Source of the DNA: Candidatus Latescibacterota bacterium
Lineage (GTDB): Bacteria; JAAXHH01; JABIQT01
DNA: 5,056 nucleotides
Assembly (NCBI GenBank): GCA_018667995.1
Contig: JABIQT010000175.1
Location: 1 to 5,056, forward strand
Direction: 5' to 3'
Of this stretch, positions 223-4,991 are shown piece after piece. The notes beneath the pieces were generated by a model. It ran no database searches and was not told where the DNA came from. It was given only the letters and a program-made list of their open reading frames with translations. A program made the translations under genes and the position numbers. Each line of letters begins with the position of its first letter. The first letter of the stretch is position 1.

Positions 223-2595
223 TCAGTTCTTACCCATCCGCAATATCTCGGTCATCATCTGTCGGAAGGCTATTACACAAACGAGGAATTCCTCAAGGTG
301 CAACTCCCGTTGCCTCCGTTCCTCATTCATTGAATTCACAATCAAACCACTGATCTTGAAAGCGCGCGTACCCGTATGGAGCAGAAGGTGGAGTCCCTCG
401 TCCGGAAAATCCTTGTCCAGTTCATCCGAATAGCTGGCCAATATGGATACGCCTTTGGGACTCGCAGACATGCGCTCAATCGCCCGTTGCGTTACGTCAT
501 GGAGTAGCCCTGCAGCATGGCCAAAATCCTGATCCTCATAGCTCGAGAGGGCATCGGTCAGCTGAGTTTCAAAATAGGGGGCGTCCAGGGTCTTGTTCAT
601 CTCCCAGCGAGACAACAGTCTCTTCATGGCTGAGAATACCACGGCCACCTGTCGATCTTGAATCATAGGTTCGGCTTCCAGCATTCGATAGAGCCGATCC
701 TGGGTGTCCATCAGATGTCCCAGCGCTTGGGCAAGGGCCTTTCGCTCGAAGCCGGGAGTGCTGTCGCGCATAAGATCATAGATGCGAGGAAGAATTTCAT
801 CGGCCTCGAGTTTACTCAGGGCCTCTACCGTCGCCAGAGCAATGGCCCGATCCGTTTCCGTTTCGAGCACCTGAGAGAGGGCGGGACGCATGCGTTCATC
901 GCCGAGTCGGTCGAGGGCCTGGACTGCACTGCGGCGAATATCGGTACGTTCGTCCCCAAGTAGTGTGACCAGGATGTTGAGACTGAGTGGCGTGCGCACA
1001 GCACCCAGGGCCTGGATAGCTTCGTGAGCAATATCGGAGTACGGGTCACTGATCTTGTCGAGTAATGGTGTTACTGCCCTGCGGTCCCCGATATTGCCAA
1101 GTGAGCGTGCTGCCTCCTCCCGTACGTGACGATCGCTGTCGTCAAGCAGATCAATGAGCTCCTCCACCGCCAGAGCGCTGCCAGTCTCGCCCAATTCACG
1201 GGCGGCCCTGGCCTTTACTTCCGGATCATTTGACTTGACCATCCTTATCAGATGCCAGAGCGTAGCCAGCGGGCGGCCCCTGCTGACCTGGCGTAGAACT
1301 ACGCGTGGTGATGTGGATGCCTCTTCTCGTATCAACCTCAGCAAAACTACGCTGATCAATCTCAAGACGAAACCGATCAGGAAGAGGTATTGCAGCCCAG
1401 AGATGGTATACCCATAGATTTGATAGGAACCTATATCCATACAAAAAGTAGCCAGCACACCGCCGACCATGGCTCCGATCGCAGAACCGGTGTTGAACAT
1501 GGCCGAGTAACAGCCGATGTAAATGGAGCGGTTTTCCTTGGGCGCTATTTTCGCCATGAGATTGAACCGGGCGGTAGGAATTCCTGCGCTAACCAGACCG
1601 CCCCATGCCTGTATCAAAGGTACGGCGATCATGTAATTTTCGTGGGTAGCAAATACCCAACCCAGAGGAAACACAGCCAATCCGGCACTGCAGATCAGAA
1701 GGACGGGGCGGTATCCGAATTTATCTCCCAGGTATCCCCATAGAGGATTAAAGGCCACGCGAACAAGGATCTGAAGAGCGGCAAACAGGGCTATCTCGGA
1801 ATAGGGGATCATCAGGGTCTGCAGCATGTATACGGCGAAGAATGGCGCCGCGACCATTGCGAGCATGCCCCGAACAGAGACCAGCATCATGAATGTGCGG
1901 AACTGCCGATGCTTGAACGGCAGCGTCAGCAGTACCTTCGCAGGTTGGAGAGCCATGCGTTGTGATGGTGGTTCAGGAATTCTGCTCCACACGAATATGG
2001 CCACCATGCCGAACACCACCGCTATGATGAAGAGCGAGGTGAATCCCATCTGAGGGTCAGTCGCCTCAAATAGATCCAGATAGGCGCCCGCCGCCAATGA
2101 GACCACAAGTCCCACAGCGGCGATGATACTCTGTTGACGTGAGACAAACCGGCCACGCACATCTGCGGGTACCAGGTCCGTCAACCAGGAGGAATTTGCG
2201 GGTGCGGCCACTGAGCTCGCCAGCCCGCCAATGACAATACAGATCACCATCGCCATTGGCAGCCATTCGCGCGAGATGAAGGACGGCAGTAGGGCAACGG
2301 GTAGCCAAATAGCGAAACTGAACCCGAAGGCCAGCAGGCAAAGCGTCTTGCGTCGTGGAAGCCGTTCTATCAGAAGGGGTGAGAATACCTGAAGCAGAGC
2401 GCCCCAGGAGGCAGCTGCCGAGAGGAGACCAATAATGGCATTTGAAGCGCCGAGATGCAGGGCATAGCCGGTGGTATAGGCACCGGTGGTGATGGAAGAG
2501 TGTACGGCAGAGAAGGCCCCGCGTACATTCCACAGGCGCATACCACGCAGAGTCTGCAAGCGGGTGAATCTGGGCTTGGGTCCGGGATTGGTCAC
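223..2595 (-). CDS. MFS permease with C-terminal HEAT-repeat domain (790 aa)
   Basis: Predicted inner-membrane secondary transporter; substrate unknown. Twelve hydrophobic segments can be placed at about residues 26-46, 52-72, 85-105, 111-132, 154-174, 185-204, 237-260, 266-285, 296-315, 321-340, 359-384 and 397-421. A classical MFS loop motif (GYLGDKFGYRP) follows TM8. After TM12 comes a soluble tail. Residues ~455-625 hold PBS-lyase/HEAT-like repeats with a 31-residue period (helices starting near 457, 488, 519, 550, 581 and about 613; e.g. VREEAARSLGNIGD). Residues ~672-790 form a further charged helical region I do not recognise. The GTG start at 2595 is chosen because it overlaps the receptor gene's stop as GTGA and sits just before the first membrane segment. 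The upstream AGG/GGAAC is a weak ribosome site, as expected for a coupled gene. Ordinary MFS proteins are about 400-450 aa, so the tail nearly doubles the size. An ATG at 2541 is a less likely start. Confidence 0.9.
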   Translation of the reverse strand: MTNPGPKPRFTRLQTLRGMRLWNVRGAFSAVHSSITTGAYTTGYALHLGASNAIIGLLSAAASWGALLQVFSPLLIERLPRRKTLCLLAFGFSFAIWLPVALLPSFISREWLPMAMVICIVIGGLASSVAAPANSSWLTDLVPADVRGRFVSRQQSIIAAVGLVVSLAAGAYLDLFEATDPQMGFTSLFIIAVVFGMVAIFVWSRIPEPPSQRMALQPAKVLLTLPFKHRQFRTFMMLVSVRGMLAMVAAPFFAVYMLQTLMIPYSEIALFAALQILVRVAFNPLWGYLGDKFGYRPVLLICSAGLAVFPLGWVFATHENYMIAVPLIQAWGGLVSAGIPTARFNLMAKIAPKENRSIYIGCYSAMFNTGSAIGAMVGGVLATFCMDIGSYQIYGYTISGLQYLFLIGFVLRLISVVLLRLIREEASTSPRVVLRQVSRGRPLATLWHLIRMVKSNDPEVKARAARELGETGSALAVEELIDLLDDSDRHVREEAARSLGNIGDRRAVTPLLDKISDPYSDIAHEAIQALGAVRTPLSLNILVTLLGDERTDIRRSAVQALDRLGDERMRPALSQVLETETDRAIALATVEALSKLEADEILPRIYDLMRDSTPGFERKALAQALGHLMDTQDRLYRMLEAEPMIQDRQVAVVFSAMKRLLSRWEMNKTLDAPYFETQLTDALSSYEDQDFGHAAGLLHDVTQRAIERMSASPKGVSILASYSDELDKDFPDEGLHLLLHTGTRAFKISGLIVNSMNEERRQRELHLEEFLVCVIAFRQMMTEILRMGKN
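606..1233 (-). other. HEAT-repeat domain coding segment of the MFS permease
   Basis: This part of the permease gene encodes about five to six helical repeats of 31 residues. The repeated core reads roughly D-x-x-V-R-x-x-A-x-x-x-L-G-x-x-G-D, with A and L recurring at fixed places (ARELGETG, ARSLGNIG, IQALGAVR, VQALDRLG, VEALSKLE, AQALGHLM). This is the pattern of PBS-lyase HEAT-like repeats, which form a curved alpha-solenoid used for protein binding. The first four or five repeats are clear; the last ones decay. The domain should be cytosolic because it follows an even number (12) of membrane segments and MFS proteins have cytosolic termini. A binding partner is not identified by the sequence. 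Confidence 0.85.
2592..2595 (-). promoter_or_regulatory. GTGA stop/start overlap coupling receptor to permease
   Basis: On the minus strand the four bases GTGA hold both the GTG start of the permease (2595-2593) and the TGA stop of the c-di-AMP receptor (2594-2592). Only a weak ribosome site (AGG at 2608-2606, or GGAAC at 2613-2609) precedes the GTG. Such overlaps usually mean that ribosomes finishing the first gene re-initiate on the second, which holds the two products in fixed ratio. Confidence 0.85.
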
Positions 2596-2921
2596 ACTTG
2601 TACAACCTGTTCCACGTTGAGAACGAATACCTGGGCACCACCCACGGGGACTGAGATCGCCTCCTCGAGCGGATTCGCATCGATTCGGGTCCCTGGTTGT
2701 GCGACGCTCATGGGTTCTTCCCGGGATTGGCAATGGGCGCGGATGATATCTATCACCGGCTCTACATCCGCATCGGCCACGCCAAGCAACAGCGTATCAT
2801 TTCCTTCTCCCACAAAACCCCCAGTGCTTCCAATTTTTGTAAATCGAAATCCGGTATCAACGAGCGCATCGCTCAGCCGCCGTATGTCGCGCTTGTTTAC
2901 AATCACAATCAGCAGCTTCAT
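2592..2921 (-). CDS. Cyclic-di-AMP receptor, DarA/PstA (DUF970) family
   Basis: A 109-aa PII-like cytosolic protein, the same length as Bacillus subtilis DarA (YaaQ) and Staphylococcus PstA. Members form trimers and bind c-di-AMP between subunits. The hallmark segment is present: RFTKIGSTGGF at residues 26-36 and G-x-G-N-D-T at 38-43, with the C-terminal strand VGGAQVFVLNVEQ (93-105). Residues reported as nucleotide contacts in Staphylococcus PstA (from memory R26, T28, F36, N41, G47, F99, Q108) all fall at identical numbers here; N24 is replaced by G. The ATG at 2921 is preferred over the in-frame ATG at 2969 because GAGGA lies 7 nt before it and the family begins MKLLI/MKLII. The stop overlaps the start of the permease gene by 4 nt, so the two are translationally coupled. 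Known family members have no catalytic activity and their downstream target is generally unclear. No symbol is given because darA, pstA and cdaR are all in use. Confidence 0.93.
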   Translation of the reverse strand: MKLLIVIVNKRDIRRLSDALVDTGFRFTKIGSTGGFVGEGNDTLLLGVADADVEPVIDIIRAHCQSREEPMSVAQPGTRIDANPLEEAISVPVGGAQVFVLNVEQVVQV

Positions 2922-3080: not shown

Positions 3081-4262
3081 TCACTCTCCCCAGTACGTTT
3101 CGCCGTCAGCCAGGAATCTCTGGACGATCTCTGGATTCAGTTGGACTCCCAGGCCCGGAGCATCCGAGATATGGACATAGCCCTTGTGAATGATGGGGCC
3201 GTCATGGAGAATGAGGTCCTCCCACCAGGGGTAATCCTCTCCGGCTCGCTCGATCATGCCGAAGTCGCGAATCGTCGCTGCCACATGGGCAGATGCTATG
3301 GTACCGATGACGCTCGCCGGATTGTGCATGGAGGTCTTCATGTAGTGCAGATCTGCCAGGTCCGCAATGCGCTTGGTTTCCAGTAAACCTCCCGCTTTTG
3401 GTACGTCGATATGCACGATATCGGTACCTCCCTGCTCAATGAAGGGCCGAAATTCATGCCGTCCGTACAGATTCTCTCCCATGGCAATAGGAACGGGTGA
3501 TCGTTCTGTGAGGCGGACCCATGCGGGTGCGAATGGGACGGGGAGAGGGTCTTCGAGCCACGCAGGACCATAGGGCGCCACACGTTCGGCAAGAGACAGC
3601 GCATCGCGCATATCAAGTGCCCAGTGGCAGTGGACAGCGATCTCGTAATCGTCCCCAAAGGCGTGGCGCATGTTGGCCATTATGGTCTCTGCCAATCGGA
3701 GATCGGATGCGGTCAGGCTCCGTGTCAAAGGTTCGTGACCATGCTCACGACAATCCGGATCGTACCGCTGCCAGAGACTATCTGCATCGATGGTCTTGAT
3801 TGCAGTCCAACCTTCCTCGTCTTTGATTCGTGCTGCATAGTCCTTGCAGACGGACAGATCTTCGGCGTGCATAGGCGTACCGGTCCGGTATAGTCTGACG
3901 CGTTCTCTGAATTTACCGCCCAATAGACGACACACCGGGAGTCCGGTCAACTTGCCAGCAAGATCCCATAGAGCGATTTCGATGCCGCTCAATGCGGCCA
4001 TCACCAAACCATTTTGCGTGTGCAGACCGGCAAGACGATCCCTGACTGTGACAAACAATCGGTCCACATCCAGAGGATTTTCACCTAATAGAGGTGGTTT
4101 CAGGATTTCCTCTATCACCTCACCAAGGCCGGGGCCCCAATAAGCTTCGCCCAAGCCCCACACGCCCTGATTGGTGTCTACTCTGATCAGGTTCCAGGCG
4201 CCGGTACGGTCTCCATGCTGCAGTCTCATTAACCTGATATCAGTAATCTTGGCGTGTAGCAT
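3081..4262 (-). CDS. Enolase-superfamily (mandelate racemase/muconate lactonizing type) protein, probable sugar-acid dehydratase
   Basis: A 393-aa cytosolic protein of COG4948, full length for the family. An N-terminal capping domain (~1-120, including LSGIEIALWDLAGKLTGLP at 91-109) is followed by a (beta/alpha)7-beta barrel. Metal ligands on strands 4 and 5 are clear: E237 in WLEDP and E263 in MGEN. H213 (HCHW, 211-214), H313 (MHNP) and E338 match the catalytic His/His/Glu layout of the ManD/GalD dehydratases, which remove water from sugar acids such as mannonate or galactonate to give 2-keto-3-deoxy products. Odd: the first metal ligand, normally Asp two residues before the catalytic His, is H211 here. 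Exact substrate cannot be read from the sequence. The ATG at 4262 has GGAG 5 nt upstream. The gene starts 12 nt after the kinase-like gene, so they are very likely co-transcribed. The superfamily assignment is firm; the dehydratase subgroup is inference. Confidence 0.9.
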   Translation of the reverse strand: MLHAKITDIRLMRLQHGDRTGAWNLIRVDTNQGVWGLGEAYWGPGLGEVIEEILKPPLLGENPLDVDRLFVTVRDRLAGLHTQNGLVMAALSGIEIALWDLAGKLTGLPVCRLLGGKFRERVRLYRTGTPMHAEDLSVCKDYAARIKDEEGWTAIKTIDADSLWQRYDPDCREHGHEPLTRSLTASDLRLAETIMANMRHAFGDDYEIAVHCHWALDMRDALSLAERVAPYGPAWLEDPLPVPFAPAWVRLTERSPVPIAMGENLYGRHEFRPFIEQGGTDIVHIDVPKAGGLLETKRIADLADLHYMKTSMHNPASVIGTIASAHVAATIRDFGMIERAGEDYPWWEDLILHDGPIIHKGYVHISDAPGLGVQLNPEIVQRFLADGETYWGE

Positions 4263-4274: not shown

Positions 4275-4991
4275 TCACTTCGTAAACGTCTTGCGAACAC
4301 CGTTCTCGTACCGCACTTCATACTTCTCGCTGGGTACGGGCATAGCTCGCATGGCCAGTTCACCATCTGTAATCAGCGGCTCTGACTTGAGCAGTATCTC
4401 GTCCAAAGACTCCTCCGGCGTTTTGTCGGTGGTGTCGATGTGTACCAACCGTCCTTTGCTATTGAAGAGGGACTGCGCGATCTCGTCATCAAATCGTTTC
4501 TGTACTTCGGCAATGTCCTGTTCCCGTACAATCGGATACTCGTGGGGTGTTGTCCGCATTCTCTCCTTCAACGCATCATCGCTGGCTGTGACGTGGAACA
4601 TGACGATGTCCGGTAGGCGAGCTTCGAGTGTCATTACCTCATAGTGCCGCTGGAATCCGTAGTGATAGTTGGGATAGTAGGGATTGTCCGGATCGTTGCC
4701 GTACATGGAAGTATACACAGCCTCTTCGATATGCCAGCCACTGATCAGAGGATACGGGTAATTCTTGATAATCTCGATATGATAGTGTAGTTGCATGCGT
4801 TGCATACGCTCTTTTACATCGTCAGGATATTCCACGAACTTCGATCTCGACTCAGCGCTGAGACTTGAATCGGGGATGGTAAAGTGGTCATCATTATGGG
4901 TCGGTCGGTTTCGGTGCTGGCAGTAATCCTGCAACTTATTGATCAGGGTGGTCTTTCCCGCATATTCGATTCCAACGAAGATGGAACGCAT
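4275..4991 (-). CDS. P-loop kinase-like protein, thymidylate/nucleotide kinase fold
   Basis: A 238-aa cytosolic protein with a Walker A motif at the extreme N-terminus, GIEYAGKTT (residues 7-15), resembling the G-x-D/E-G-x-G-K-T/S-T of thymidylate kinases but with Tyr in place of Gly. Other kinase-like elements follow: DDHF (34-37) after the second strand, LISGWHIEEAVY (82-93) where nucleoside kinases carry a D/E-R motif, the strand PDIVMFHVTASDDALKERM (127-145) equal to the pre-LID segment of NMP kinases, and a basic/acidic LID-like stretch up to about 160. It probably phosphorylates a small molecule using ATP, but the substrate is unknown and it is not a standard Tmk. The C-terminal ~35 residues (YEVRYENGVRKTF) look like an added tail. 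The start is supported by AGGAGA 7 nt upstream. It is the first gene of a likely operon with the enolase-superfamily gene. Confidence 0.75.
   Translation of the reverse strand: MRSIFVGIEYAGKTTLINKLQDYCQHRNRPTHNDDHFTIPDSSLSAESRSKFVEYPDDVKERMQRMQLHYHIEIIKNYPYPLISGWHIEEAVYTSMYGNDPDNPYYPNYHYGFQRHYEVMTLEARLPDIVMFHVTASDDALKERMRTTPHEYPIVREQDIAEVQKRFDDEIAQSLFNSKGRLVHIDTTDKTPEESLDEILLKSEPLITDGELAMRAMPVPSEKYEVRYENGVRKTFTK

Follow-up and report, generated by a model that had tools for sequence, protein, structure and literature searches.

Does the small c-di-AMP receptor encoded at this locus regulate the membrane transporter whose gene it overlaps? The window (the whole stretch of DNA that was analyzed, 5,056 nucleotides) contains darA, for a receptor of the DarA/PstA family, followed on the same strand by a gene for a major facilitator superfamily transporter with HEAT repeats (MFS-HEAT). 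DarA/PstA has been known as a c-di-AMP receptor for more than 10 years. Its binding partners were still stated to be unknown in 2025 (PMC12802241). It is established that PII-like proteins can bind transporters that are encoded next door (PMC10117731), and none of the papers that we searched joins c-di-AMP and DarA to an MFS transporter. Neither the receptor family nor the notion of a PII-like protein encoded next to a transporter is new; the pairing of this receptor with this transporter is. We consider it probable (about 0.57) that this conserved operon of two genes specifies a transporter under the control of c-di-AMP, and that DarA is the soluble subunit that regulates it.

The locus

The window is contig C677 of genome G000, an assembly of 6.06 Mb in 1165 contigs that is 85% complete. 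When we re-examined the open reading frames, the Pfam matches, and the contact residues, the earlier coordinates and sequence statements for positions 223 to 2921 proved correct (Table 1). These include the claim that the stop codon of darA overlaps the start of the transporter gene as GTGA. The GTG at 2595 is itself a presumed start; homologues start at the same place. The transporter gene's stop ends at 223, and the contig ends beyond it. Upstream of darA by 159 bp and on the same strand is an MR_MLE gene, which could share the darA transcript.

Table 1. Features of the window and the diadenylate cyclase of the source genome
Feature	Position	Strand	Evidence
P-loop kinase-like ORF	4275-4991	-	Weak Pfam match to Thymidylate_kin, below its cut-off; no NCBIfam family
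MR_MLE gene (enolase superfamily, sugar-acid dehydratase-like)	3081-4262	-	Pfam
darA, 109 aa, c-di-AMP receptor (DarA/PstA family)	2592-2921	-	PF06153, E=6e-29; PstA structures; contact residues
Putative c-di-AMP binding segment of DarA, residues 26-47 (RFTKIGSTGGFVGEGNDTLLLG)	2781-2846	-	R26, T28, GGF, N41, and G47 match the contacts in PMC4316997
B'-loop of DarA, residues 68-92, presumed effector-contact loop	2646-2720	-	Alignment; role suggested in PMC4316997
GTGA overlap of darA stop codon and presumed transporter start codon	2592-2595	-	Also GTGA in G396 and G424
MFS-HEAT transporter gene, 790 aa	223-2595	-	MFS_1, E=7e-38; HEAT_2, E=4e-37
12-helix MFS transmembrane domain, residues 12-419	1339-2562	-	AlphaFold2; Foldseek matches to MFS structures
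HEAT repeats, residues 450-642, predicted cytoplasmic	670-1248	-	Pfam; AlphaFold2; alpha-Rep matches
C-terminal helical domain, residues 643-790	226-669	-	AlphaFold2 helices 643-789; profile alignment
Diadenylate cyclase, CdaA type, 525 aa	L030:6064-7641 (G000:C690); DAC match G000:C690:6412-6759		E=3e-40

A divergent DarA in a genome with a diadenylate cyclase

The window's DarA matches PF06153 (CdAMP_rec) over residues 1 to 107 with 100.9 bits, which passes the gathering score (cut-off 27). Against the NCBIfam equivalog model for DarA, it scores 99.5 bits, below the cut-off of 140, so it is a divergent member of the family and does not receive the equivalog call. By sequence, its relatives in the PDB are PstA from Listeria (4rww and 4rwx) and from S. 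aureus (4d3g and 4d3h). Using the published c-di-AMP contacts of the S. aureus PstA complex as the reference (PMC4316997), we found R26, T28, G34-G35-F36, N41, G47, F99, and Q108 in the window's DarA, along with D12, R67, and GGA at 94-96. The only changed contact is L37V, which is a backbone contact; all of the side-chain contacts are kept, in agreement with the original prediction. The protein resembles B. subtilis DarA and the PstA proteins of L. monocytogenes and S. aureus in its sequence family, its c-di-AMP contacts, its TxxxxxGGFxxxGNxT core, its GGA, and D12/R67, and by analogy with PstA it is probably a trimer. Unlike them, it belongs to a divergent subfamily under the NCBIfam cut-off, has another B'-loop, and has a transporter as its partner gene.

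Among the DarAs that are linked to an MFS-HEAT gene (see below), T28, G34, G35, T43, R67, G94, and G95 are invariant. Some of them have changes at contact residues (F36L in G396, G47C in G424, and N41S in G410), which makes ligand binding uncertain in those proteins.

The original prediction depended on there being a diadenylate cyclase (DAC) gene in the source genome, and the genome contains one (PF02457; Table 1) as well as a single darA. Of 16 genomes examined from this phylum, 15 have a DAC gene and 14 have darA. In the source genome, a CdaA-type N-terminal membrane region, the DAC domain, and YbbR repeats are joined in one protein. In Firmicutes, CdaA and the YbbR-type regulator CdaR are encoded by separate genes. 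Similar lengths of the open frames suggest that the DAC-YbbR fusion is conserved across the phylum. More broadly, darA is common outside the Firmicutes: besides the 14 of 16 genomes, it was present in 189 of 251 genomes from a second phylum. By contrast, Gram-negative species were stated in 2015 to lack PstA (PMC4475381).

A transporter with a long helical tail

We built an AlphaFold2 model of the window's transporter (25-row alignment, mean pLDDT 87.3), in which a linker joins the MFS domain to the HEAT repeats. The tail is predicted to be cytoplasmic because 12 transmembrane helices place the C-terminus inside. The profile of this subfamily aligns through the C-terminal end in the clade of darA-linked transporters and in its sisters from G414 and G454, and most other MFS-HEATs align to it only to about 530-730. 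Those other MFS-HEATs (the p2 paralogue of the same phylum and many proteins in the second phylum) likewise have an MFS domain and then HEAT repeats, but they are just 22-32% identical, approximately, to the window's transporter, fall in a separate part of the tree, and never adjoin darA in the 77 genomes described below. A second MFS-HEAT paralogue (L033:1572-3845, L121:5649-7922) occurs throughout the order, about 25% identical to the window's transporter and away from darA.

In structural comparisons with Foldseek, the transporter matched alpha-Rep repeats and MFS carriers for a wide range of substrates, and no substrate class stood out: the best matches are a mix of nucleoside, sugar-acid, lipid, and drug carriers. 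The loci do have carbohydrate-related neighbors (MR_MLE, FGGY kinase, RraA-like, and mannonate dehydratase-like genes), and the nearby sugar-acid and carbohydrate genes weakly suggest a sugar or an organic anion as the substrate. We also considered whether the carrier might export or import c-di-AMP, or a related nucleotide, with DarA as a sensor or buffer, so that the operon sets the level of c-di-AMP. The Listeria MFS multidrug transporters MdrM and MdrT mediate c-di-AMP secretion (PMC3933815), and the MFS half of the window's transporter is weakly similar to drug-efflux families (TIGR00880, E=2e-14). However, this weak profile similarity is non-specific, the top structural matches are mixed, and some of the neighbors (MR_MLE, FGGY kinase, and RraA-like) are carbohydrate genes. 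We regard a c-di-AMP carrier as improbable.

Adjacency in two phyla

Within the window's own phylum, darA and MFS-HEAT are linked in just 2 of the 13 genomes that have both. Besides the source genome, this is G001, from another family, where a class-III aminotransferase gene, darA, and MFS-HEAT follow each other in that order with 50-bp gaps. Genus g3 (11 genomes) has darA and the orthologue of the transporter gene on different contigs or about 750-790 kb apart: the aminotransferase gene and darA are kept together, and MFS-HEAT lies elsewhere, beside a sodium:solute symporter gene in the loci examined. G014, which is 99% complete, keeps the transporter and the aminotransferase, and we did not find a darA match in its genome or beside the aminotransferase gene. 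When we used the transporter alignment to scan the named genome collection, we obtained only own-phylum loci and one distant match; for the source group, that collection has MAGs that carry the labels Latescibacterota, Gemmatimonadetes, or Zixiibacteriota. By itself, adjacency in this phylum is a weak case for a module.

Two other genes recur near these loci. The class-III aminotransferase gene is directly upstream of darA (by about 26-50 bp) in G001 and in genus g3 (L024:7277-8668, L029:7222-8568, L032:10788-12134); in the source genome it is on a contig other than darA's. A gene for an RraA-like aldolase is convergent with MFS-HEAT in G001 and genus g3 (L024:3628-4362, L028:13147-13863, L031:10225-10941) and may be a hint to the metabolism of the substrate.

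We then turned to the second phylum (that of G019), for which our sample was 251 genomes, 153 of them with MFS-HEAT-type matches, and inspected what flanks the genes most closely orthologous to the window's transporter gene. In seven of the nine testable genomes, darA is directly upstream on the same strand. Both genes are present but apart in G414 and G454; G436 has the transporter without any darA match, and in G571 the gene runs off the end of the contig. The original prediction called for adjacency that is conserved across distant species and found in more than one or two close genomes, and this is what we observed: darA precedes MFS-HEAT on one strand in nine genomes from two phyla. The spacing is -4 bp in G000, +50 in G001, +120 in G582, +73 in G590, -8 in G553, +19 in G410, -4 in G396, +3 in G434, and -4 in G424. 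Thus, the reading frames overlap in four of the nine pairs, and three of these overlaps are GTGA. Where the transporter start overlaps the darA stop, it has no separate ribosome-binding site that we could recognize, as would be expected for translational coupling.

Orthologues from the linked loci have only about 40-60% identity, and no gene other than darA and MFS-HEAT occurs at all nine (the close pair G396 and G424 share further neighbors). In that close pair, the genes on either side run on the opposite strand, which leaves darA and MFS-HEAT as the whole unit. Second-phylum genomes with darA and another subfamily of MFS-HEAT provide a comparison: in none of 77 are the two genes adjacent, and the closest two on a shared contig are separated by more than 20 kb. 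(These 77 are the genomes with both gene positions listed, as read from the match tables.) The difference between 7 of 9 and 0 of 77 gives P = 7e-9 by Fisher's test, which is uncorrected for phylogeny and so ignores shared descent. Chance is excluded because the pair is conserved in two phyla. Overall, the module is well supported as a conserved operon.

The pair is not obligatorily linked, as genus g3 keeps the genes apart and two genomes whose transporters belong to the linked clade, G014 and G436, lack a darA match. In addition, among 24 darA loci from other phyla, there was no MFS-HEAT match nearby, and in most of the other bacteria examined darA is near tmk/holB-type genes. These exceptions favor the main rival explanation, which is co-expression without contact: one operon would serve one shared physiological condition, and DarA would act on another target, as is presumed in Firmicutes. 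However, nothing but this pair is conserved among nine otherwise scrambled loci, four times with overlapping frames, and PII-type regulators are known to bind the transporters next to which they are encoded (PMC10117731). We therefore view co-expression without contact as rather unlikely.

History of the pair

In the tree of MFS-HEATs, the linked transporters and those of the window's own phylum form one clade (support 99/98), with the unlinked transporters of G414 and G454 outside. Similarly, the linked DarAs form one clade across phyla (94/96), and the unlinked DarA of G454 is outside. These congruent clades point to a single origin of the arrangement. From the trees, the pair probably formed once, was inherited or transferred together between phyla, was kept in most lineages, and was later split (genus g3) or reduced (G014 and G436).

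A single origin, followed by loss in genus g3, is also what neutral synteny would predict, with adjacency left over from common descent or arising by chance and without a functional link. But the pair has been kept across two phyla, at protein identities of about 40-60%, while the other neighbors all changed, the spacing is tight, and other MFS-HEAT subfamilies show zero adjacency. Neutral synteny is already disfavored and seems very improbable.

How DarA might control the transporter

If the operon does encode a c-di-AMP-controlled transporter, then DarA would dock on the cytoplasmic HEAT/C-terminal tail through its B'-loop. Binding of c-di-AMP would reorder the T'- and B'-loops, which would alter the docking and thereby switch transport. 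The apo form, at low c-di-AMP, may dock and restrain transport, by analogy to GlnK-AmtB and SbtB-SbtA; we can only guess at the sign. With their translation coupled, receptor and transporter would be made in near-stoichiometric amounts. DarA could dock just as plausibly on the C-terminal helical domain (643-789) as on the HEAT repeats. Of the original prediction of a c-di-AMP-controlled transport module, the conserved operon (nine genomes, two phyla, DAC present) stands; that the HEAT tail is bound, that c-di-AMP has an effect, and in which direction control runs are what we infer.

A close parallel is SbtB-SbtA of cyanobacteria, in which a small PII-like receptor of adenyl nucleotides, which also binds c-di-AMP, is in one operon with the transporter that it binds and modulates (PMC10117731). 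However, SbtB is from another branch of the PII superfamily and acts via its T-loop, and SbtA is a Na+/bicarbonate symporter with no HEAT tail described. GlnK-AmtB is similar in that a PII regulator restrains a membrane channel from the cytoplasmic side (PMC10117731), but its ligands are ATP, ADP, and 2-oxoglutarate, and AmtB is a channel made of three subunits rather than a HEAT-tailed MFS carrier.

The B'-loop was proposed for effector binding in PstA (PMC4316997). In the alignment, unlinked DarAs of the second phylum mostly have a B'-loop close to the motif PP[DE]A.P.G.F.P.PV, and the linked DarAs, including the window's, lack that motif. We rejected the idea that this loop is unusually conserved in linked DarAs: it is less conserved, with a mean identity of 0.29 as against 0.54 in unlinked DarAs, though the motif differs. 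The lower conservation counts against a strict single partner. A distinct and variable B'-loop would fit a different partner, not a rigidly constrained interface.

Implications

Because the linked DarAs make up a separate subfamily whose B'-loop is different, our result need not apply to the DarA of Firmicutes. For this branch of the family, the conserved operon provides a direct, testable candidate for a partner. At only just better than even odds, we propose that this DarA subfamily is the dedicated c-di-AMP-sensing subunit of the MFS-HEAT transporter, that it exerts PII-like control of an MFS carrier via the HEAT/helical cytoplasmic domain, and that this is the first concrete partner for the DarA family. 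PII-like control of transport would thereby be extended to the major facilitator superfamily and to c-di-AMP. The findings also place c-di-AMP/DarA signaling in uncultivated lineages outside the Firmicutes.
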